64,000 bases of DNA, taken from assembly GCA_903882745.1 (NCBI GenBank), contig CAIRYG010000011.1, forward strand, positions 310,001-374,000, given 5' to 3'. Position 1 is the stretch's first letter. Every line of letters begins with the position of its first letter. Of the stretch, positions 536 through 13,284 are shown in pieces. The translations under genes and the position numbers were made by a program. The notes beneath the pieces were generated by a model, which was given only the letters and a program-made list of their open reading frames with translations, did no database searches and was not told the origin of the DNA. The stretch comes from an uncultured Gemmatimonadota bacterium (GTDB lineage: Bacteria > Gemmatimonadota > Gemmatimonadetes > Gemmatimonadales > Gemmatimonadaceae).

Positions 536-2020
536 ATGAGTGCTCCACACAGCGTTGCCTCCGGTGCTCCTGTTCGCGTCCGATTTGCCCCGTCACCGAC
601 GGGCTACCTGCATGTCGGCGGCGCGCGGACCGCGCTCTTCAACTGGCTCTTTGCGCGCAAACTCGGCGGCAAGTTTCTGCTCCGCATTGAGGATACCGAC
701 AAAGCGCGAAGCACCGACGAAAGCACCGCCGCGATCTTTGAAGGACTCACCTGGCTCGGCCTCGAGTGGGACGAAGAGGTTGTGTATCAGGGCGGAAACC
801 TCGAACGCCATCGCCGCGACGCGCACGCGATGCTCGAGCGCGGACTTGCGTATCGCTGCTTCTGCACGCCGGCCGAGCTCGACGAACGTCGCAAAGCCGC
901 CGAGAGCGCCAAGACCGCATTCAAGTACGATCGCCGCTGTGATCGCCTGAGCAAGGAAGACGTGGAACGCCGCACGGCCGCTGGCGAGCCCTCGGTGGTG
1001 CGCTTTCGCGTTGCTGACGGTGCCACGTCGTGGCCCGATCTCGTGCACGAGACGATCAGCTTCCCGAATAAGGACATCGAGGATTTCGTCATTCTGCGCT
1101 CGGACGGCACGCCGATCTACAACATGGCGGTGGTGTCAGACGACATTGCGATGGGGATCACCCACGTGATGCGCGGCGACGATCATATCTCCAACACGCC
1201 CAAGCAGATTCTGCTATACGAAGCGCTCGGTGCGTCACTGCCAGTCTTCGCGCACTTCCCGATGATTCACGGGCTCGACGGCAAGAAGCTCTCGAAGCGC
1301 CACGGAGCGACGGCGGTCGGCGACTATCAGCATCTGGGCATTCTCCCCGAGGCGATGAACAACTTCCTCGCGCTCATGGGCTGGAGCCCCGGCGGGGATC
1401 TCGAGGTGATGACGCGCGACGACATGATCGCGCGCTTCGATACCGATCACCTGCTGCGGAAAGCGAGCGTCTTTGACACCAAGAAGCTCGAGTGGATGAA
1501 CGGCCAGCATCTGTCGCGGCTCACGGGCGATGCGCTCGTCGCGGCGATGTCGCCGTCGTTTATCGCGGCTGGTCTCTTTGCCGACGCCGCCGCCGTACAC
1601 GCGGTACAGGAATGGTTCGCCACCGTACTCGAAGACTGCAAAGAACGTGCGCGCACCACCGATCAGCTGGTGGAGCTCGCACGCCCCTTCTTCCCCGGCC
1701 AGCCGCTCGTTATCGACGCGGCCGCGGCGGCCAAGCACTGGGCCGACCCCGCCAAGTCCATCGAATGGCTGCAGGCGGTGCGTGCGCGCCTCGCCGCGAT
1801 CACCGATTGGACTGACGCCGGCATCGAAGCCGATCTCAAGGCGCTGGCCACGGAACTCGGCGTGGGTGCGTCCCCGCTCTTCCAGACAGCTCGCGTCGCG
1901 GTCACTGGCCGCGGTGTCGGTATCAGCATCACCAAGACGATCTTCCGCTTGGGACGCGACGTCTCGCTCGCCAACATCGACAGTGCGTTGACCCACCTCG
2001 CGGGGCATTCCGCCGCGTGA
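536..2020 (+). CDS. gltX: Glutamate--tRNA ligase
   Basis: This class I aminoacyl-tRNA synthetase charges tRNA-Glu with glutamate in the cytoplasm. At 494 aa it has the usual bacterial length. The N-terminal Rossmann catalytic domain carries the HIGH-type motif as H-V-G-G at residues 26-29, within a typical P-S-P-T-G-Y-L-H context. The KMSKS-type loop is K-L-S-K-R at 251-255. The C-terminal third is the helical anticodon-binding region. Whether it is discriminating or also makes Glu-tRNA(Gln) cannot be told here, although a tRNA-Gln gene exists further along. Its stop overlaps the lexA start (GTGA, 2017-2020), so the two are probably co-translated. Confidence 0.97.
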   Translation: MSAPHSVASGAPVRVRFAPSPTGYLHVGGARTALFNWLFARKLGGKFLLRIEDTDKARSTDESTAAIFEGLTWLGLEWDEEVVYQGGNLERHRRDAHAMLERGLAYRCFCTPAELDERRKAAESAKTAFKYDRRCDRLSKEDVERRTAAGEPSVVRFRVADGATSWPDLVHETISFPNKDIEDFVILRSDGTPIYNMAVVSDDIAMGITHVMRGDDHISNTPKQILLYEALGASLPVFAHFPMIHGLDGKKLSKRHGATAVGDYQHLGILPEAMNNFLALMGWSPGGDLEVMTRDDMIARFDTDHLLRKASVFDTKKLEWMNGQHLSRLTGDALVAAMSPSFIAAGLFADAAAVHAVQEWFATVLEDCKERARTTDQLVELARPFFPGQPLVIDAAAAAKHWADPAKSIEWLQAVRARLAAITDWTDAGIEADLKALATELGVGASPLFQTARVAVTGRGVGISITKTIFRLGRDVSLANIDSALTHLAGHSAA

Positions 2021-2664
2021 CCCGCACCGCGCTCACCCCAATCGAGGAGCAGGTCTACCACTTCCTCCTCGATTTCCTTGCCGAACGCACGTTTCAGCCG
2101 AGCGTGCGCGAAATCGCCGAACGGTTCAAGATTGCGAGTACCAAGTCGGTCGCGGATCTACTCGCGTCGCTGGAGCGGAAGGGATACATCGAGCGCGAGG
2201 CCGGGCGGTCGCGGGGCGTCACATTACTGGGGTTTGCTGGGGGTGCAGGCACGGTGCCTGTTCCCGTGATGCGCGCCGATGGAGAACAGCGCGCAATGAT
2301 CGATGACGGATTCCTCACCATCGACCGCACGCTCGTGAGCGCGAGCGACGCCTTCATCACCCGTGCCTTTCCCGAGGGATGCGCCGAGGCCGGCGTGCTC
2401 GAGGGCGACTTACTGATCGTGAATCCGTCGGAGCGCTCCCGTGACGGGGACGCACTGGTAGTGCGCGTGGGCGGAGCGATTCTCGTGCGCGGGATGCAGC
2501 GCTTGGGAAGCAATATTCGACTGATGCCCTCGGGCGATCGCGAGGCGATCGAACTCGGCCCGCACGACGACTACGCGGTGCTCGGCGTACTCGGCGGGGT
2601 CATCCGGAGCAACACGCGCAGCGAGTTCAGCAGCGAGTTCAGCAGCGAGTTCAGCAGCGAGTAG
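2017..2664 (+). CDS. lexA: LexA-family repressor lacking the self-cleavage residues
   Basis: The 215-aa protein has the LexA layout: an N-terminal winged HTH (about 1-70) and a C-terminal S24-like domain (about 78-195). The alignment anchors are clear, with G-V-L-E-G-D-L-L (126-133) matching the LexA G-I-M-D-G-D-L-L block. The catalytic Ser position is Gly121, the catalytic Lys position is Arg158, and the Ala-Gly cleavage pair is Asp88-Gly89. Self-cleavage as in E. coli LexA is therefore not expected, so it may be a constitutive or differently controlled repressor. The last 14 residues are an E-F-S-S tandem tail. It overlaps gltX by 4 bases. The family is certain; SOS function is doubtful. 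Confidence 0.9.
   Translation: MTRTALTPIEEQVYHFLLDFLAERTFQPSVREIAERFKIASTKSVADLLASLERKGYIEREAGRSRGVTLLGFAGGAGTVPVPVMRADGEQRAMIDDGFLTIDRTLVSASDAFITRAFPEGCAEAGVLEGDLLIVNPSERSRDGDALVVRVGGAILVRGMQRLGSNIRLMPSGDREAIELGPHDDYAVLGVLGGVIRSNTRSEFSSEFSSEFSSE
2620..2661 (+). repeat. 12-bp tandem repeat encoding the LexA tail
   Basis: Three perfect copies of AGCGAGTTCAGC (2620-2631, 2632-2643, 2644-2655) plus a half copy run up to the TAG stop. They encode the repeated S-E-F-S tail. In-frame 12-bp units allow slippage to change tail length without breaking the gene. Confidence 0.95.
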
Positions 2665-3604: not shown

Positions 3605-4216
3605 TTAGAGCGCGGTCACCGTGCTGCGCACGATTGAGTGGCCGAGGATCTCGACCTCGACCATGTCGCCCTGAAAGATCTGCGCGACGCCGGCGGGGGT
3701 GCCCGTCAGCACGAGATCGCCGGGCTCGAGCGTGATGTAGCGGGTGATGTATTCCAACAGCACCGGAATCGAGAACGCCATGTCAGCACTGTGGCCCCGC
3801 TGCTTCTCCACACCATTGTGGCGCGTCACGACGGTCAGGTTCGCCAAGTCGAACGGCTTGTTGGACTCTTCACCGAGTGGAAGGAAGGTGTCGCATCCCT
3901 TGGCGCGTGCCCACTGGCCGTCTTCTTTCTGCCATTCGCGAGCAGACACGTCGTTGGCCGCCACTACACCACGAACGCCGGCCGCACATTCCGCGGCGGT
4001 TGCTTTGCGCAGGCGCGACCCGATCACCACGCCGATTTCGCCCTCGAAATCGATACGGCCCGCGTCGGCGGGGAGCTCAATCGCTTCGCCCGAGGCGATG
4101 ACGGTGGTCGGCGGCTTGAGAAAGAGCAGCGGCTCCTTCGGCACGTCGTTCCCCATCTCTTTGGCGTGCTCGAGGTAGTTCCGGCCAACACAGACAATCT
4201 TCCCTGGCGTTTTCAT
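3605..4216 (-). CDS. Fumarylacetoacetate hydrolase (FAH) family protein
   Basis: The 203-aa protein is a single-domain FAH-fold enzyme, the short form typical of acylpyruvases, oxaloacetate decarboxylases and 2-oxo-acid hydratases/isomerases. The divalent metal site is visible as Glu58 and Glu60 (D-F-E-G-E) and Asp89 (A-N-D-V-S-A-R), with the family start C-V-G-R-N-Y near residue 9. The exact substrate cannot be read from the sequence. It begins 8 bases after the stop of the DinG-like helicase gene and probably shares its transcript, without an obvious functional link. Confidence 0.88.
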   Translation of the reverse strand: MKTPGKIVCVGRNYLEHAKEMGNDVPKEPLLFLKPPTTVIASGEAIELPADAGRIDFEGEIGVVIGSRLRKATAAECAAGVRGVVAANDVSAREWQKEDGQWARAKGCDTFLPLGEESNKPFDLANLTVVTRHNGVEKQRGHSADMAFSIPVLLEYITRYITLEPGDLVLTGTPAGVAQIFQGDMVEVEILGHSIVRSTVTAL

Positions 4217-4224
4217 GTCTTAAT

Positions 4225-6789
4225 TTACCCTGAAGTGTTTGAAAGGGTCGTCCCGTAAAATACGCGCAACTGCTCGAGAAGTGCCGGCCAGGCCCCCTCA
4301 ATGCGCCGAGCCGGTGGCAACCCGGCCAGCAGCGCCCTGCCATACGACTTCCGCACGACCCTGGGGTCACAGATGACAACGACGCCTTGGTCCGTCGCGG
4401 TGCGAATGAGTCGGCCGAACCCCTGCTTGAGCCGCAGTGCGGCGTGGGGCACCATATACTCGCCAAACGAGTCGCCCCCGGCACCGTCGATCGCTTCACA
4501 TTGGGCGGCGGTCACCGGCTCCGACGGCACCCGAAAGGGAATCTTTCCGAGGACGAGTCCGCGGAGCGCGCGCCCCGGCACATCGACCCCTTCCCAGAAC
4601 GAGGCGGTGCCGATCAAGACGGCATCGCCGTGCTCACGGAATCGCCGCAACAGTGCGTCACGCGTGTCCTCGCCGTGCACCAGTAACGGATGTTGCGACT
4701 CCATCCCCAAGGCGCGCATCGCCTGCGCGGCCTCGCGCACGTCGCGATGGCTGGTGAAGAGCAGAAATACCCCGCCGCCCGAGACGCCCACGAGATCAGC
4801 CGCCGCTTGCACCGTACGGCGGAAATGTACGCGCGCATCTTCGTTCGGCGCTGGAAAATCCGTGGGAATCGCAAGAATCGCCTGCGTCGCGTAGTCAAAG
4901 GGCGACGGCAGCGACGCGGTCACGGGCTCCACATCCTCTTGGTCGAGCCCCAACCGGCGACTCACAAAATCAAAGGCCTCCCCCACGGCGAGCGTTGCGC
5001 TGGTCACGACGCAGGTCTCGAGTCGGCGAAACAGATCCTCGCGCAACAACGGCGCCATGTCGAGCGGAACGCTGGCGAGCGCCACATTGCGATCGAGGCG
5101 ATCCCCTTCCTCGGCCGTATTGTCACTCTGCCGTCGACGCGAATCGGTGCGCGCCTCGATCCAGCGCACCAGCTTGTCCGCGTCCTTGCCAGGCCGAAGC
5201 GCCATCCGCATACCGTCGGCCGCGTTGCCAAGCCGGCGCGTCACACCGCGGATCTCATTGAGCAGGGGCGCGAGCTCCTCAGCGCGGCGTTCGTCGGTCT
5301 CCAAACGCTCACGGACCATCACGAGTCCTTCGGAGAGCAGTTCAATCTCGCGCAGCACGTCATCAAGCGACGCGCTCAGCCCGGCGCGCCAGACGGGTTC
5401 TTCGTCGAAGGCCGGCGTCAGGCGCACCTGCTGCTCGCTCCGCGCATGCATCAATTCGTCGAGAATGTCGAACAGACGCATCCCCAACTCGCGCGCGGTC
5501 GCCGCCGACGGCACAAGGCGCGCCCGCACGAGATCCAAGCTGGCCACGCTCAACAGGTCATCGGCTGCGACAAGCTTTCGTTCGAGCGAATGCAGCAGCC
5601 CCTTTCCGTTGCGATCGAGTCGCGCGAACAGTCGCTGCACGCCTCGGCGCGTGACCGTCTGCCCTAAGTGCGAACTCGCCGCGTCCTCCAGATGATGCCC
5701 TTCGTCGATGACGAGCCGCGTGTACGCGGGGAGCACTGCAGACTCCCCCCAGTTCCCCGAGGCACGGCGCACCGCGACATCCGCCATGAGCAGGTGATGG
5801 TTCACCACCACAATGTCCGCCTGCGCCGCGAGTTTCCGCGCCGAGAAGACAAAACATTTTTCGAAGTACGGACAGCGGAGACGCGTGCACAGATCGGGCT
5901 CCGCGGCGACTTCGTCCCACACGTCCGTTCGCGGCGCCACCAGGAGGTCCGCGGTCGACCCATCGCGTGTTTTGTCCGCCCACGACGCGAGCGCATCGAG
6001 CTCGGCCGCCGCCCCGGTATCGAACAACGACGCGCCGGCCGCACGCGCCTGCTCGAGACGCTGCAGGCACAAATAGTTCCGCCACCCCTTGAGGAGCGCA
6101 AAGCGCACGGGCTGATCGCTCAGCGCTTCGGCGAGGAAAGGCAAATCCTTCCCCACTAACTGCTCTTGCAGCGTGATGGTCGCGGTGGAGACAATCGTCC
6201 GCTCCCCGTTCGCGGCCGCCCAGCGCAATGCGGGCACGAGATAGCCGAGTGATTTTCCGACGCCCGTGCCGGCTTCAATCAGCCCAATCCCGCCGCGCGA
6301 ATACAACTTGCTCACTCGGCGTGCCATCTCGCGCTGACTCGGGCGATCTTCGTAGCGCCCGAGTGCTGCTGCGATTGGGCCGTCGGGACCGAGCAAATCG
6401 GCGACGTCATTCGGGTTGATCTCAATGATCGGCTGCTCACGCGGGACCTCGACCACCACATACAGATCGCTGGCCGCGTTATCGATAATCCCGAAGCCGA
6501 TGCCGTCGCCGTGCACGCGAACGGCGATTTCGAGGTCCGGCCCAGACGGCTGCAGCACCCCGGAGGGATGATTGTGCACCAGCATCTCCCCGCGCTGCGC
6601 GAACCCCGGGAGTGCGAGGACACTCGAGATATCGCCACGCGCTACAGGGCGCGCCGCGGTGATGATACCCTCGTCGTTGACCGTACAGGAAAAGCAGACC
6701 TCGTTCCCACCCGCGAGCGAAATCGCGGCGCGCATCGCGCGCGCCGGTCCCTGTGCAATTCGTGAGGCTGGCGTTACGCGATCGCTCAC
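4225..6789 (-). CDS. DinG/XPD-family Fe-S helicase with N-terminal RadC-like JAMM domain
   Basis: The 854-aa protein is a fusion. Residues about 15-120 look like a JAB/JAMM (RadC-type) domain. It has Glu30 and the signature H72-N-H74-P-S-G then S82 and D85, matching the metal-binding H-x-H-x(10)-D of RadC. Residues about 145-854 are a superfamily 2 DinG/XPD helicase. This part has Walker A A-G-T-G-V-G-K-S (173-180), four cysteines for an Fe-S cluster (241, 301, 306, 312), the D-E-G-H box (362-365), and late motifs W-E-G-V-D-V-P-G and G-R-L-I-R. DinG enzymes unwind 5'-3' and act on R-loops and forks. I chose the GTG at 6789 because it overlaps the upstream stop (GTGA). A longer frame would run into that gene. 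Confidence 0.92.
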   Translation of the reverse strand: MSDRVTPASRIAQGPARAMRAAISLAGGNEVCFSCTVNDEGIITAARPVARGDISSVLALPGFAQRGEMLVHNHPSGVLQPSGPDLEIAVRVHGDGIGFGIIDNAASDLYVVVEVPREQPIIEINPNDVADLLGPDGPIAAALGRYEDRPSQREMARRVSKLYSRGGIGLIEAGTGVGKSLGYLVPALRWAAANGERTIVSTATITLQEQLVGKDLPFLAEALSDQPVRFALLKGWRNYLCLQRLEQARAAGASLFDTGAAAELDALASWADKTRDGSTADLLVAPRTDVWDEVAAEPDLCTRLRCPYFEKCFVFSARKLAAQADIVVVNHHLLMADVAVRRASGNWGESAVLPAYTRLVIDEGHHLEDAASSHLGQTVTRRGVQRLFARLDRNGKGLLHSLERKLVAADDLLSVASLDLVRARLVPSAATARELGMRLFDILDELMHARSEQQVRLTPAFDEEPVWRAGLSASLDDVLREIELLSEGLVMVRERLETDERRAEELAPLLNEIRGVTRRLGNAADGMRMALRPGKDADKLVRWIEARTDSRRRQSDNTAEEGDRLDRNVALASVPLDMAPLLREDLFRRLETCVVTSATLAVGEAFDFVSRRLGLDQEDVEPVTASLPSPFDYATQAILAIPTDFPAPNEDARVHFRRTVQAAADLVGVSGGGVFLLFTSHRDVREAAQAMRALGMESQHPLLVHGEDTRDALLRRFREHGDAVLIGTASFWEGVDVPGRALRGLVLGKIPFRVPSEPVTAAQCEAIDGAGGDSFGEYMVPHAALRLKQGFGRLIRTATDQGVVVICDPRVVRKSYGRALLAGLPPARRIEGAWPALLEQLRVFYGTTLSNTSG

Positions 6790-8066
6790 GTCTTGAGCGG
6801 CTTCTTTTTGGCGGCTGGGAACAGCACGTTGTTGAGAATCAAACGATAGCCTGGCGAGTTGGGATGCAGCGCAAGGTCGGTCGGCGCCGCCCCGATGTTG
6901 TGTTGCGGATCTTCGGGGTCGTGACCGCCCAGGTAGGTCCACGAGCCCTTGCCATAGTCCCCGTGGATGTACTTGACCCACGGCGCTCCATCTTCTGTCG
7001 CGAGGATTGTGACCCCTGGCTTGAGCACCGCTTTGGCAAACGAGGTCGTGACCCCGTAATAGTCGGGAATGACCTTGCGATGGTCTTGCAAGAGCATCGT
7101 GGCGACGGGATCGAACTTCGCCGAGAAGTTGAACAGGGTGAACTGCCCCAGCGGCTGACGCCGCGCCGGCACATTGACTTGGTGACCGTCAATGTCGCTC
7201 ATGGCATTCACGCCGGGCGACATCTCGAGGTGCACATTCTGAAACGCGAAGGTGTGGATCCAATCCATCTTGGAATCCGCATCGGCGTCCATCGGCGTTC
7301 CATCTGAGTAGGGGCCGGCGATATCGACGTTTTGCGCACCCATGGCGAGTTCAATGGTTTCGGTCGCGCCGCACATCGCGAAGAGGAACCCGCCCTTCTC
7401 AACGAAATCGCGCAGCTTGCCGGCGACGGCCTTCTTCACCGCGGGAACATTCGCGAGCCCGTTGCGCTGGGCGGTGGCCATGTCGCGGTCACGCTGTTCA
7501 ATGAACCAGGGCGTATCGCGGAATCCGAGGTACAGCTTGTTCATCTGCCCCGTGAAGTCTTCGTGGTGCAGATGGATCCAGTCGAACTTGGTGAGGTCGC
7601 TCTTGAGCACCTCGTCGTCCCAAATCTGGGTGAACTCAATGCCGGCGTACTTGAGGGCGAGCGTGACCGCGTCATCCCAGGGTGGGGACTTCGGCGGTGA
7701 GTAGATCGCAATGCGCGGCGCTTTCTCGAGCGCCACGGCGTCCATGTTGCCGGCCGCGATTTCCTTGCGGATTCCGGCAAGCGTCGCGTCTGACATCGAC
7801 TCCACGGTAATCCCGTCGAGGGCTGCCTTGCGGCGGAGCGCCGGATCCTCAGGCAGCAGGAAGGCTCCACCACGATAGTTCAGGAACCACTCGGTTTTTG
7901 TTCCCGTCTTGAGCGCGGTAAACGCGAGTCCGTAGGCTTTCAGGTGGTTGGCCTGAATGTCATCCATGGGAACGAGCATATGCTGCGCGCCAACGGTTGC
8001 CGCGGCGCCGCTGAGAAGCGCGACGGCGACCACCATGCATTGAACAAGTGAACGACGAACGGTCAT
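6786..8066 (-). CDS. Secreted GATase1-like protein (asparagine synthetase B-type annotation), function unknown
   Basis: The 426-aa protein has a signal peptide (about 1-27, ending A-T-V-G-A-Q). The rest looks like a class I glutamine-amidotransferase/ThuA-like fold: an I-A-I-Y-S start near residue 120, then W-I-H-L-H-H-E-D and G-G-F-L-F-A-M-C-G-A-T-E at a nucleophile-elbow-like site. From memory, relatives are often called asparagine synthetase B, but the synthetase domain is absent and a periplasmic location argues against that role. It overlaps the TPR gene upstream (ATGA) and the helicase gene downstream (GTGA). Confidence 0.75.
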   Translation of the reverse strand: MTVRRSLVQCMVVAVALLSGAAATVGAQHMLVPMDDIQANHLKAYGLAFTALKTGTKTEWFLNYRGGAFLLPEDPALRRKAALDGITVESMSDATLAGIRKEIAAGNMDAVALEKAPRIAIYSPPKSPPWDDAVTLALKYAGIEFTQIWDDEVLKSDLTKFDWIHLHHEDFTGQMNKLYLGFRDTPWFIEQRDRDMATAQRNGLANVPAVKKAVAGKLRDFVEKGGFLFAMCGATETIELAMGAQNVDIAGPYSDGTPMDADADSKMDWIHTFAFQNVHLEMSPGVNAMSDIDGHQVNVPARRQPLGQFTLFNFSAKFDPVATMLLQDHRKVIPDYYGVTTSFAKAVLKPGVTILATEDGAPWVKYIHGDYGKGSWTYLGGHDPEDPQHNIGAAPTDLALHPNSPGYRLILNNVLFPAAKKKPLKT

Positions 8067-9769
8067 GCCGTGGCTCCCGTGCGAGCGATATCGAGTTCAC
8101 GACGTGCCTGCGGCACGAGTGCGCTCTGCGGATACGTAAGAATCAAATGCTCAAGCCGGTCCACCGCGCCGGCGGCGTCCCCTTTGCGACGTAAGGCGCG
8201 AGCCCATTCCAGATCAGATTCCGCGGCTTCAGGCGCCGTGGCGTACTGCTGCACGATCCGTTGCCAGAGGGGAATCGCCTGCCCGTCGCCGCGACGCGCC
8301 ACGTGGATGCGGGCGGCGAGCGCGAGCAGCAGCGGGGCGGCATCCACGACCTCATCCGCCGCCCGCTCAAAGCGCTGCGCTGCCTGTGTTGAGTCGTTGC
8401 GCGCGAGCGCCATGAAGGCGGCGCCAATCGCGCGCGAACTGTCGGACTTGGTGCGACCGAGGAGCGCCATGGCATTCACCACATCAGGGGTGACTTCCGC
8501 GGGGTGTCGCAGTCCAGCCCGTGCCTTCACAAGGTCGCCGTCAAAGAGGGCGATCCACGCCGTGACTTCATCTTCGTCGTCCAGGGTCGCTTGGGTGAGC
8601 GCGGCACGGGCCTTGTCGATCTGGCCGTTCCGGATCCAGGCCCACGCCACAACACGCGCGTAGCTCTTGACGACAGCAGGATCGAGTTGCGGGGCGTTGG
8701 CCGCGAGGCGCGCCTCGACGTCGCGCGCGCGACCGAGTTGACTCAGCGCCTTCAGCTCGAGCGGTAGCAACTGCGTTCGCGCTGCGGCAGGAGGCAGCAG
8801 TGCACCCCCCGTGGCAATGAACGCAAGCGCAGCGGTCGGCTCACCCGCGTTGAGCGCGGCGGTTGCGGCGCGCGTGGCGAGCGGCCCCGAGGGGCGAGCG
8901 GCGAGCATCGCGGCGAGCGCGTCACGTGCAGGCCCCCACGCCGTGGCACGCTCGGCGTCGGACGCGAAGTCACTCCAGGTATCGAACGCGGAATCAGCTG
9001 GCGCGAGTGTGGCGAAGGAGCGCCACGCCTCGCGTGGCTGACCCCAACCCATCTCGAGCAGGCCCAGCGTCTTACGCACCGATATCGGAGCGGGGGTCAC
9101 GCGGAGAATCGCGCGAATGGAGTCCCGTTTTTCCGTCGGAGCGGGCTGTAGCGAGTACTGCGCCGCCTGCTCTAGGTAGCCCTCGTTGGCCAGCGCTTCG
9201 CGCCAGGCGACCGCCGCTTCGGACCACAGACCAAGCCCCGCGCGCAGCTGTGCGACTTCGATGCGCAGTTCTTTCGTGCTGCCGAGCGACCTCGTGGCTT
9301 CCTGAAGAATCGTATCCGCGAGCGCGGCGCGGCCATCCATCAGCAGTTGGCCGGCGAACTCGCGGTAGGGCGTCGGGTCGTGCGGCTGGAGGCGCACCCA
9401 ATCGTTGAATGCGTCTCGTGCGTCCTTGTCGCGCGCCACAGCACGCAATACCCGGAGCTGCGAACCGCGCAACATGCGATCCGTGGGACGCTGCCGGACG
9501 AGTGTATCGAGCGCCACCAACACGCTGTCGTCCTGCGCGAGCTGCGAGAACACTCGTTCGAGACCGAGCACTCCCTGCCCCGGTTGGCCCGCGCTAATGA
9601 CCGCGCGCCAGGCAGTGACGGCATCGCGCCATTTTCCTGCGTTCTCGAGATCGATGGCCCGTTGAATCAGCTGGTCCTGCGCCTGCGCATAGACCACGAC
9701 AGGACGCACCGTGATGGCCACGCAGGCGCTCAGCGCCAGCGCGCGCACGAAGTTCCCCACGGTGATCAC
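8063..9769 (-). CDS. Exported tetratricopeptide-repeat protein
   Basis: The 568-aa protein has a signal peptide (about 1-28, ending V-V-Y-A-Q-A-Q) and then helical repeats over nearly its whole length. They are rich in Ala and Leu with TPR-like spacing. The last repeat region (about 510-560) has the form seen in outer-membrane assembly TPRs (D-A-A-G-A-V-D-R-L-E-H-L-I-L-T-Y-P). It probably acts as a periplasmic scaffold. The start is GTG and overlaps the DUF4175 stop by 4 bases; its own stop overlaps the next start (ATGA). Function is inferred from context only. Confidence 0.82.
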   Translation of the reverse strand: MITVGNFVRALALSACVAITVRPVVVYAQAQDQLIQRAIDLENAGKWRDAVTAWRAVISAGQPGQGVLGLERVFSQLAQDDSVLVALDTLVRQRPTDRMLRGSQLRVLRAVARDKDARDAFNDWVRLQPHDPTPYREFAGQLLMDGRAALADTILQEATRSLGSTKELRIEVAQLRAGLGLWSEAAVAWREALANEGYLEQAAQYSLQPAPTEKRDSIRAILRVTPAPISVRKTLGLLEMGWGQPREAWRSFATLAPADSAFDTWSDFASDAERATAWGPARDALAAMLAARPSGPLATRAATAALNAGEPTAALAFIATGGALLPPAAARTQLLPLELKALSQLGRARDVEARLAANAPQLDPAVVKSYARVVAWAWIRNGQIDKARAALTQATLDDEDEVTAWIALFDGDLVKARAGLRHPAEVTPDVVNAMALLGRTKSDSSRAIGAAFMALARNDSTQAAQRFERAADEVVDAAPLLLALAARIHVARRGDGQAIPLWQRIVQQYATAPEAAESDLEWARALRRKGDAAGAVDRLEHLILTYPQSALVPQARRELDIARTGATA

Positions 9770-12700
9770 GGCTTGTCGCCGTTCAGCCGACGGAAGTATT
9801 CAATCACCAATCGACGCTCTTCGTTGCTCAACCCGCGCAACTCATTCCATTCCGGCACGCGATACTTGAGCGCGGCTTTCCCCGATGCATTCGCGGAGGG
9901 CGGGACGAACGGATTGTTCTGATCGCCAGGCTTCGACTCGCGACGCGACGACTCGTCCTTTTGGTCGTTCTCTAGCGTGCGGCCCGCGTCGAGCATGCGC
10001 TTGAACAAGCGCTGTTGGCGTTCGAGGACCGTCGGATCTGCAGCACCCTGCTCGAGCGACTGCGCCAACTGCCGCGCTTCGCGCGCCAGCTCCGCGGCCT
10101 TGCCCGATGCATCGGCGTCGCCCACGTCGTCGAGCTTGCGCGCCACGTCGCGCTGCGTGCGCGCGAGATCCTTGGCCAGCGCCTGGCCTTCCGGAGACAT
10201 CTGCTGCCCCTGCTTCTGCTGCTGGATCGCGTTTTGGAGGAAACTCTGCATCTGCCCGTTCAGCGATCCCTGCTGACGCGCCAACTGCTGCAACTGCGCG
10301 AGCAACTCTGGAAGTCCGCTAGCCGACTGCGAATTCCCGGCGCGCTCGCGATCACGCGTGAGCGACGCGGCGGCTTGGCGCAACGCATCCGCGGCGTCGG
10401 ACATCGTGCCGCTGGCCTGCGAGGCGTTCCGCTGATCCGACGCGTCCTTGGTGGCCTGCTCAACTTTCTGTTCAGCGTCACTCACCGCCTTCTGCGACTT
10501 CGGCGAGACGAGCGCCGAGCGTTTGGCTTGGCTGTTGAGCCGGTCCGACGCCTTCTGCACCCCTTGGGCGAGCGCACTCTGCTCCGAGCGCAACGACGGA
10601 TCCGAGGGATTTTGCTTGGCCTTGTTCGCGAGCGCGTCCTGCTGTCGCGCGAGCTGCAGCATCTCCTGCACGGAGCGATCAAGCTCGCCCGTGACTTCCT
10701 GCTTCCACTCTTCGACCTGCGCCTTGCGTCCATCGGAGAGCGCTTGCGCGGCAGCGTCCATTGCATCGGCCGCTTCGCGTGCCGCATCCGAGCCCTGCCC
10801 CTTCTGCCCAGGCTGCCACTTCTGCCCTTGCTGGCCTTTCTGTCCCTGTTGCCCTTGCTGCCCTTGCTGGCCCTGCTGGCCCTGCTGGCCTTGCTGGCCT
10901 TGCTGGCCTTGCTGGCCTTGCTGGCCTTGCTGGCCCTGCTGGCCCTTTTGCCCGCTCTGGCTCTGCTGCTGGCCTTGCTGCTGGCCCTGCGGCTGGCCCT
11001 TGCTGTCCTTGGGCTGCGCCTTGTCGTCGCCAGACTGGCCCTTCTCGCCTGACTTTTCCCCCGCCTGATCGCGGTCCATCGCGCTCTGGGCCTTCATCGC
11101 TTCGTCCAGCGCGCGCTGCGCGTCTTTCGCGGCGGTGTCGGCGTTCTCCTTCTTCAATCGATCCTTGAGCGCCTCAATGTCCTTGGCCAGCTGAGCGGTG
11201 CGGTCCTGCATGCGCTTGTTCGCGTCGGGGCCCCCTTTGGCGCCGGAGTCCGCCAGCGCGCGCTGCTGCTTGGCCAGATCTTTCGCTTCGTCGCGCAACG
11301 TTTGCATCGCGCCTTCGAGCGCCGCCCGCTTCAAGATTTCCGCGCTCTTCTCGAGCGCCTCGCGCATCTTCTTTTGCTGGTCCGACATCTGTTGCAACGA
11401 CGCCTTGGACTGATCCTGCGACAAATTCTGCGTGGCGTTGTCGAGCTTCTTCAACGCCTCCATCATCTCGGGCGTGAGCGCCTCGCGCAGCAGGCGCTGG
11501 GCCTCACGCAGCTGTCCGGCCATGGCCGTGTCGAGCGCCCCGGCCGCGCGCATCCGATCCTCAAGCGCCTTGGACGTTTGCTGTAACTGCTGCACGCGCT
11601 CGGCCATCGCCTTCTGTTCCGCGGCAAGCGCTTTGGCCTGCTGCGCCCCTTCGTACTTCATTGCATTAGGCTGCCCAGCCTTCGCCGGATCGTCCGATTT
11701 CCCGGGGCGCTGATTGGCGGCATCTGACGTGCGCTGTTGCAACTGCTGCATCGCTTTTGCTGCCGCCGCTGCGCGGGACGCGGCCGAATCAGCAGCAGAA
11801 CGCGCGGCCAAGCGCTGCTCTTCAGTTGCCGGAATGCGGAGCACCAGCTCGCGGCTCATCCCGTCTTGTCCACCGGGCGATTCGTCACGCGCCACCAGCT
11901 GCACGTGCACCGCATCGCCGGCCCCAAGACCAAACGGGGTGAGATCCATCATGAGCGTGCCGCTCCAATCCGCACTGCCGCCGCCCGCCACCTTCTGCAC
12001 ATTCGGTGTGGTCGCGCGCCCGTCACGCGTGATGCGCCAGACCTTGAGCGAGACCGACGCCAACGCGTGATCGTCGCTCGCCACGAGCTGGAGTTCAATT
12101 TTATCCGTCGCCTGCACCAAACTGTCGCTGCCGGGCGAGAGAATCTCAGCCAGCGGCGCGGAATCCGGGAGGACCTCGAGCACGAGAGGGGCCGGCACAT
12201 CGGCAATCACCTTCGTCTGGCCGCGTGCACTCCAGCTCCAGGTACCGCTCGACATCGGCGTCATACGACCGCTGAATCGCCGGTCATCGCTCGCGAGCGC
12301 AATCGTCTGCGTGCCGTCCGACAACGCCACGGCGGCCAATGGCTCCGACGAATGTCCCTCGATCGTCAACGACGTGCCGCGCGGCAGCCGCAGCGGTGCA
12401 TCCGCCACCAATGTCTCCGGCGCGCGACGCAGGTACGCCGGATACGTCGCACGAATGGCGACATCGCCCACGAACGGACGGTCCACCACGCGCACCACCA
12501 CCGTGTCGCTCAGCGCACGCCCATCGGTTGCCACCAACGTCAGGTCCGCATCGAGTGGACCAAACTCCACCTTCGCCTCGCCACGCTCCACCACAATGGG
12601 CGTCTCCGACCAGGCATTGCCCGTCGTCCGACGGCGCAGCACGAGCGCGCTCCGCCCCGCCGCGCGAATCGTAAAGCGCACCGTGCTCCCACGCTGTGCC

Positions 12701-13284
12701 CGACGCGGCGCTCCTGGAATCTCAATGGGCGACAACAGCGTTCCACGCCACGCGTCCACCGGATGCACCAGCGCCGCCCACCCATCGCGCCGTGACGTCG
12801 CCCCAATCACCAGCGCTATGAGCACCGGCACGAGCACCGCGCCCGCGCGAAACGCCCGCGTGCGGAGCCGCCGCTCAAGCGCCGGCGCCAGCACGTCGCC
12901 GCTGCGATGCAACCGCTCCGCCAACTGCTGCTCCGCCACTCGCACGAAAATGCTGCGATCGTAGGCGAGCTCCACAACGCCGCGCACCGCACCGTCGCGC
13001 AACGACTGCTCACGCTCCACCGCCGCCGCTACCGCCGGCAGCGACGACAACGCGGTCGCCGTACGCGTCCCACGACGCGCCACAAGCCATCCGGCAATCA
13101 CCACCACCGCCCACACCGCAAAGGGGACGAACCGCGGGAGCCCAATCCACCGCGCGCCGCCCAAGACCTGCACCCCCAACACAAGAATCGCCGCTGCCGC
13201 CGCGAGCACCGCCACGGTCGTTCCCGCGTGCGCCAACCGCACCACACGCGCGCGCTCGCGGATCAGAATATCCATCAGGCTCAT
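9766..13284 (-). CDS. DUF4175-type membrane protein with coiled coil and GQQ repeat tract
   Basis: The 1172-aa protein has hydrophobic segments near residues 20-45, 50-70 and 148-165. These are followed by beta-rich extracytoplasmic domains (about 190-490), then a very long Ala/Gln/Lys-rich coiled-coil region (about 500-1120) that matches the DUF4175 style. Residues about 760-830 are low complexity, dominated by repeats of Gly-Gln-Gln. DUF4175 and DUF4159 genes commonly sit in clusters with MoxR ATPase, DUF58 and vWA proteins. Here only the DUF4159 gene (ATGA overlap upstream) and a TPR gene (GTGA overlap downstream) accompany it. The molecular role is unknown. Confidence 0.85.
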   Translation of the reverse strand: MSLMDILIRERARVVRLAHAGTTVAVLAAAAAILVLGVQVLGGARWIGLPRFVPFAVWAVVVIAGWLVARRGTRTATALSSLPAVAAAVEREQSLRDGAVRGVVELAYDRSIFVRVAEQQLAERLHRSGDVLAPALERRLRTRAFRAGAVLVPVLIALVIGATSRRDGWAALVHPVDAWRGTLLSPIEIPGAPRRAQRGSTVRFTIRAAGRSALVLRRRTTGNAWSETPIVVERGEAKVEFGPLDADLTLVATDGRALSDTVVVRVVDRPFVGDVAIRATYPAYLRRAPETLVADAPLRLPRGTSLTIEGHSSEPLAAVALSDGTQTIALASDDRRFSGRMTPMSSGTWSWSARGQTKVIADVPAPLVLEVLPDSAPLAEILSPGSDSLVQATDKIELQLVASDDHALASVSLKVWRITRDGRATTPNVQKVAGGGSADWSGTLMMDLTPFGLGAGDAVHVQLVARDESPGGQDGMSRELVLRIPATEEQRLAARSAADSAASRAAAAAKAMQQLQQRTSDAANQRPGKSDDPAKAGQPNAMKYEGAQQAKALAAEQKAMAERVQQLQQTSKALEDRMRAAGALDTAMAGQLREAQRLLREALTPEMMEALKKLDNATQNLSQDQSKASLQQMSDQQKKMREALEKSAEILKRAALEGAMQTLRDEAKDLAKQQRALADSGAKGGPDANKRMQDRTAQLAKDIEALKDRLKKENADTAAKDAQRALDEAMKAQSAMDRDQAGEKSGEKGQSGDDKAQPKDSKGQPQGQQQGQQQSQSGQKGQQGQQGQQGQQGQQGQQGQQGQQGQQGQQGQQGQKGQQGQKWQPGQKGQGSDAAREAADAMDAAAQALSDGRKAQVEEWKQEVTGELDRSVQEMLQLARQQDALANKAKQNPSDPSLRSEQSALAQGVQKASDRLNSQAKRSALVSPKSQKAVSDAEQKVEQATKDASDQRNASQASGTMSDAADALRQAAASLTRDRERAGNSQSASGLPELLAQLQQLARQQGSLNGQMQSFLQNAIQQQKQGQQMSPEGQALAKDLARTQRDVARKLDDVGDADASGKAAELAREARQLAQSLEQGAADPTVLERQQRLFKRMLDAGRTLENDQKDESSRRESKPGDQNNPFVPPSANASGKAALKYRVPEWNELRGLSNEERRLVIEYFRRLNGDKP
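10797..11000 (-). repeat. 9-bp minisatellite encoding the Gly-Gln-Gln tract
   Basis: Plus-strand units of CTGGCCTTG and close variants (CTGGCCCTG, CTGCCCTTG) are repeated about a dozen times in tandem. They read as Gly-Gln-Gln on the minus strand inside the DUF4175 gene. The central copies are identical, so copy number may vary between strains. Edges are approximate because the flanking copies are degenerate. Confidence 0.9.

Follow-up and report, generated by a model that had tools for sequence, protein, structure and literature searches.

The gene at positions 4225-6789 (minus strand) of the window, the 64,000-nucleotide stretch of Gemmatimonadaceae DNA analysed here, encodes a protein of 854 amino acids in which a RadC-like JAMM domain is fused to a DinG-type Fe-S helicase. 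It joins an already described kind of protein, the RadC-like DinG, in a phylum (Gemmatimonadota) that goes unnamed in the main text of the review describing it (PMC11981726). Our leading interpretation, held with slightly less than even confidence, is an Fe-S helicase with an intact N-terminal JAMM zinc hydrolase that acts on what the helicase exposes, somewhat more likely nucleic acid than protein.

The two halves are translated as one protein, as the preliminary description had supposed. The frame is open throughout, and its GTG start codon at 6789 overlaps the TGA stop of an upstream gene (6786-8066, minus strand). The dN/dS ratio is about 0.1-0.3 in the JAMM half and in the helicase half alike, and mean identity to the window protein is 62% for the JAMM domain and 58% for the helicase. 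Of 123 distinct homologues placed in a tree, 115 carry the JAMM motif; these are from many assemblies and share the fused frame. This recurrence and the purifying selection in each half exclude an artefact of the frame, and the probability that two unrelated genes were joined by faulty sequencing or by calling the ORF too long is negligible.

The JAMM domain covers about residues 13-117 (6439-6753, minus strand). Its metal-site motif HNHPSGVLQPSGPD spans residues 72-85 (6535-6576, minus strand), and the ligands are invariant. The protein carries the JAMM/MPN+ signature E...HxH-x7-S-xx-D, and E30, H72, H74, S82 and D85 are unchanged in 50 of 50 aligned Gemmatimonadota sequences, some of which are just 35-45% identical to the window protein across the domain. 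The chance of these five sites all falling among the 21 invariant columns (of 136) is about 6e-5. The spacing is the same as in the motif described for AfJAMM, EXnHS/THX7SXXD (PMC300881), but an N stands between the histidines instead of S or T. The Pfam RadC model (PF04002) matched the N-terminal 138 residues alone with 25.0 bits, over the curated cut-off of 22.1. Inside a scan of the full protein it scored 19.6 bits over residues 69-93, and it matched all 50 aligned members (best E 1.5e-10). Alignment of the JAMM profile with 29 canonical RadC proteins of the same phylum (hhalign) gave a probability of 96.9% and an E value of 1.3e-10, and the N-terminus of the full-length profile matched RadC 2qlc among solved structures.

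The preliminary description had named structure prediction as what could overturn a JAMM fold for residues 15-120. AlphaFold predicted the JAMM fold for residues 1-136 (pLDDT 87, pTM 0.77), and the best Foldseek match of this model was RadC 2qlc (E 2.8e-5). The model also matches the JAMM/MPN enzymes Rpn11, CSN5, BRCC36 and PfJAMM1; the JAMM/MPN fold matches listed have Z 7.4-9.6 and identities of 10-21%. We conclude from sequence and model that the N-terminal domain is a genuine RadC-like JAMM domain with a predicted JAMM fold.

Judged by its sequence, this domain is not RadC itself. With RadC (PF04002; 2qlc) it shares the JAMM fold, the HNHPSG...PS..D motif, a glutamate in the first strand and an RG before the next loop. 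However, the HPREVF segment that follows the RG in RadC, ahead of the metal motif, is absent from the fusion, which is about 10 residues shorter there, and RadC's own N-terminal region is absent too. RadC equivalog scores are far below their cut-offs (20.7 vs 180 bits and 17 vs 133.85 bits; NF000642/TIGR00608), and a separate canonical RadC is present on another contig of the same genome.

The helicase, about residues 142-845 (4255-6366, minus strand), is of the DinG/YoaA type. Pfam places DinG helicase domains, including Helicase_C_2, behind the JAMM domain, and NCBIfam places YoaA and DinG models over the helicase, with the score for the YoaA equivalog NF053712 (562.5 bits) below its cut-off of 680. 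The Walker A motif GTGVGKS, the DEGH motif and the cysteines C241, C301, C306 and C312 (segment 5854-6069, minus strand) are present. The first solved-structure match of the full-length profile is E. coli DinG, and the ssDNA-bound form 6fwr matches the helicase. S. aureus DinG 8zef, deposited as a 3'-5' exonuclease, is aligned with the helicase from near residue 251, and FANCJ is a distant sequence relative (9ej9, E 6e-12). A complete JAMM metal signature followed by a full DinG helicase with four Fe-S cysteines had been claimed in the preliminary description. Both claims stand, with the refinement that C241 (6067-6069) is replaced by Ser in 11 of 41 homologues, from families f4-f6; single-cysteine substitutions of this sort are listed by a 2025 review (PMC11981726).

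That review models RadC-like DinG with zinc as one of ten DinG subgroups, gives Desulfuromonas soudanensis as an example, reports that organisms with it lack HolC, and notes that the subgroup has yet to be studied (PMC11981726, section 3.8). The window protein has the features of the subgroup: an N-terminal RadC-like domain with the conserved E, two H and D, then a YoaA-like Fe-S helicase with motor domains, arch and an Fe-S domain, for which three or four cysteines are given (PMC11981726). The novelty of the JAMM-DinG architecture implied earlier is therefore lost, since the subgroup was already named (PMC11981726) and the fusion already argued from (PMC5512222). The companion claim, that the JAMM domain takes the place of the exonuclease found in other DinGs, is borne out; exo- or endonucleases occupy this N-terminal position in other DinGs (PMC11981726). 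Compared with DinG/YoaA (6fwr; NF053712), the fusion has the entire helicase body and the Fe-S cysteines, but an extra N-terminal JAMM domain. Like ExoDinG (S. aureus DinG, 8zef/9ii8), it has an added domain before the same helicase. However, the added domain of ExoDinG is a DnaQ-type exonuclease, whereas the N-terminus here matches RadC alone in Pfam, and the match to TIGR01407 (ExoDinG) begins at position 245 of the 889 in the model. Our analysis adds the conservation of the fusion over at least six families of one Gemmatimonadota class in a conserved neighbourhood, a Gemmatimonadaceae clade that retains the helicase after losing the JAMM domain, and a Fusobacterium relative whose JAMM domain is apparently degenerate.

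The window protein matched 207 of 249 genomes sampled across the phylum, mostly at full length, with full-length matches in every family group (f1 to f6, one class of Gemmatimonadota). Certain Gemmatimonadota genera had no match among the 249 genomes. A single genome-collection scan with the window protein, which reached little beyond the phylum, kept 80 loci, nearly all named Gemmatimonadota; the two named Planctomycetota both branch inside Gemmatimonadaceae in the tree. The neighbourhood recurs in most loci. The upstream gene whose stop overlaps the fusion start encodes a 426-amino-acid protein without a Pfam match and lies upstream in 84 homologous loci, and an FAA-hydrolase gene (3605-4216, minus strand) lies downstream in 89. 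These wide full-length matches, the similar evolution of the two halves and the recurrent neighbourhood indicate that the fusion is an old, conserved, chromosomal and vertically inherited lineage gene rather than part of a mobile element.

Few neighbours of the fusion are as well conserved as the 426-amino-acid protein, with 55-84% identity in the loci listed. Farther along the window, a DUF4175 protein (9766-13284, minus strand) contains an extended glycine-glutamine (GQQ) repeat around residues 780-830.

An origin in a mobile element or defence system was considered and rejected. PADLOC hits fell in the helicase half alone (mainly type IV DinG models), with none in the JAMM domain, and the conserved chromosomal neighbourhood also speaks against it. 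The JAMM profile had no match among 56 DinG relatives in viral contigs. Among the 15 records listed from a plasmid search, the one aligning over the JAMM region was a chromosome-size Fusobacterium record, filed as a plasmid though 2.1 Mb long.

A LexA-like gene (2017-2664, plus strand) is convergent with the operon of the fusion. Neither the Ala-Gly cleavage site nor the Ser-Lys dyad of LexA is present in its product or in near relatives. The dyad is retained by orthologues at this locus in other Gemmatimonadaceae (L054, L064, L142), and another LexA, this one intact, is encoded at G000:C10:70872 (L238). E. coli LexA served as the reference in this comparison. On these sequences, the gene looks like a non-cleavable LexA paralogue. 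Its product ends in the repeat EFSSEFSSEFSSE, which the relatives shown lack. Four simple forms of LexA-box-like pattern gave six scattered matches in the window (a raw count) and none before the operon of the fusion.

Eight distinct homologues lack the JAMM domain. Seven form one supported clade nested among Gemmatimonadaceae that bear the JAMM domain. The eighth, L142, branches near that clade on a long branch, and the pattern fits one or two losses. In the six clade members with available upstream sequence (L140, a locus also numbered L089, and L141, L143, L144, L095 and L098), the helicase gene directly follows rsmI, and the four usual upstream genes (DUF4159, DUF4175, TPR and the 426-amino-acid gene) are gone together with the JAMM domain. 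L142 has retained the upstream genes and lost the JAMM domain. Whole-genome searches of genomes with a JAMM-less helicase returned RadC-type matches only and no relocated JAMM copy, a point in favour of our leading interpretation. Since the helicase persists in a clade that has dropped the JAMM domain, this domain is accessory to the helicase in Gemmatimonadota.

The Fusobacterium DinG (L145:3977-6409) aligns along nearly its full length, with the glutamate, both histidines, the proline and the aspartate replaced. Its N-terminal profile match is weak (E 3.6e-4, probability 37%). This N-terminus is likely, though not proven, to be a degenerate JAMM domain.

Family knowledge of DinG suggests how the protein could work. 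The helicase half would load on ssDNA and translocate in the 5' to 3' direction. Anchored in the position that DnaQ has in ExoDinG, the JAMM domain would hydrolyse what the helicase exposes, as an activity accessory to it. The candidate substrate is nucleic acid, namely a displaced strand, a flap or an R-loop strand, on which the cut would be zinc-dependent. The link of the JAMM domain to forks, R-loops or DNA ends drawn in the preliminary description is an inference. By analogy, nucleic-acid cleavage seems somewhat more likely than cleavage of DNA-bound protein, because the JAMM domain sits where other DinGs carry nucleases. The metal site kept intact in 50 sequences, conservation of the JAMM domain on a par with that of the helicase, and the RadC profile, RadC fold and DinG structure matches (6fwr, 8zef) all agree with a helicase-tethered hydrolase. 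The proposal that RadC is a nuclease is said to go back to Iyer in 2011. According to an earlier suggestion, repeated in a later paper, RadC domains act as nucleases or in nucleic-acid processing, on the grounds of their fusions, including those to DinG/RAD3-like helicases, and of a missing ubiquitin groove (PMC5512222), and we count both grounds in favour of nucleic acid as substrate. We found no RadC-family protein with demonstrated nuclease activity in the literature. It weighs against a nuclease that DALI shows no similarity of the RadC-like domain to nucleases (PMC11981726). Sequence and predicted fold are alike compatible with nuclease, peptidase and binding-module readings, which could not be separated on these grounds.

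The biochemically characterised JAMM relatives from the fold search are peptidases or isopeptidases, which counts against nucleic-acid hydrolysis and in favour of a metallopeptidase that cuts proteins on DNA, as roadblocks or DNA-protein crosslinks, met and unfolded by the helicase, a one-chain analogue of FANCJ and SPRTN. The precedent is that the metalloprotease SPRTN can cut crosslinked proteins once FANCJ has unfolded them (PMC12279946), and the distant relationship of FANCJ to the helicase adds to it. However, SPRTN does not belong to the JAMM proteins, a protein substrate is not known, and RadC-clade JAMMs reportedly lack the groove for the ubiquitin tail (PMC5512222). We regard such a peptidase as unlikely, though worth serious consideration. 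Its fullest form, drawn by analogy, would be bacterial repair of DNA-protein crosslinks by one polypeptide, in which a FANCJ-like Fe-S helicase unfolds the crosslinked protein and passes it on to the JAMM protease of the same chain; this we consider improbable.

The JAMM domain could also be a non-catalytic module for binding, dimerisation or regulation. The clade that keeps its helicase without the domain is consistent with this, as is the Fusobacterium homologue, in which the metal ligands are lost and the domain is apparently retained. However, the metal ligands and the glutamate are invariant in Gemmatimonadota, which disfavours a mere binding module there and makes this explanation rather doubtful overall.

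An activity like that of deubiquitinases, directed at a ubiquitin-like modifier, is highly improbable. The fold matches to Rpn11, CSN5, BRCC36 and PfJAMM1 speak for it, but the nearest relative by sequence and fold is RadC and not a Ubl peptidase, and no ubiquitin-modifier gene was noticed in passing beside the fusion. A search for E2 (UQ_con) gave no match, yet the control genomes gave none either.

RadC is widespread and, to our knowledge, there is no agreement on its biochemical function. A strictly conserved RadC-type domain that is tethered to a helicase, and that was lost in one clade which keeps the helicase, offers a handle on the role of JAMM domains of the RadC type. The fused enzyme could be compared, on identical DNA substrates, with versions that lack the JAMM domain or have a dead metal site.
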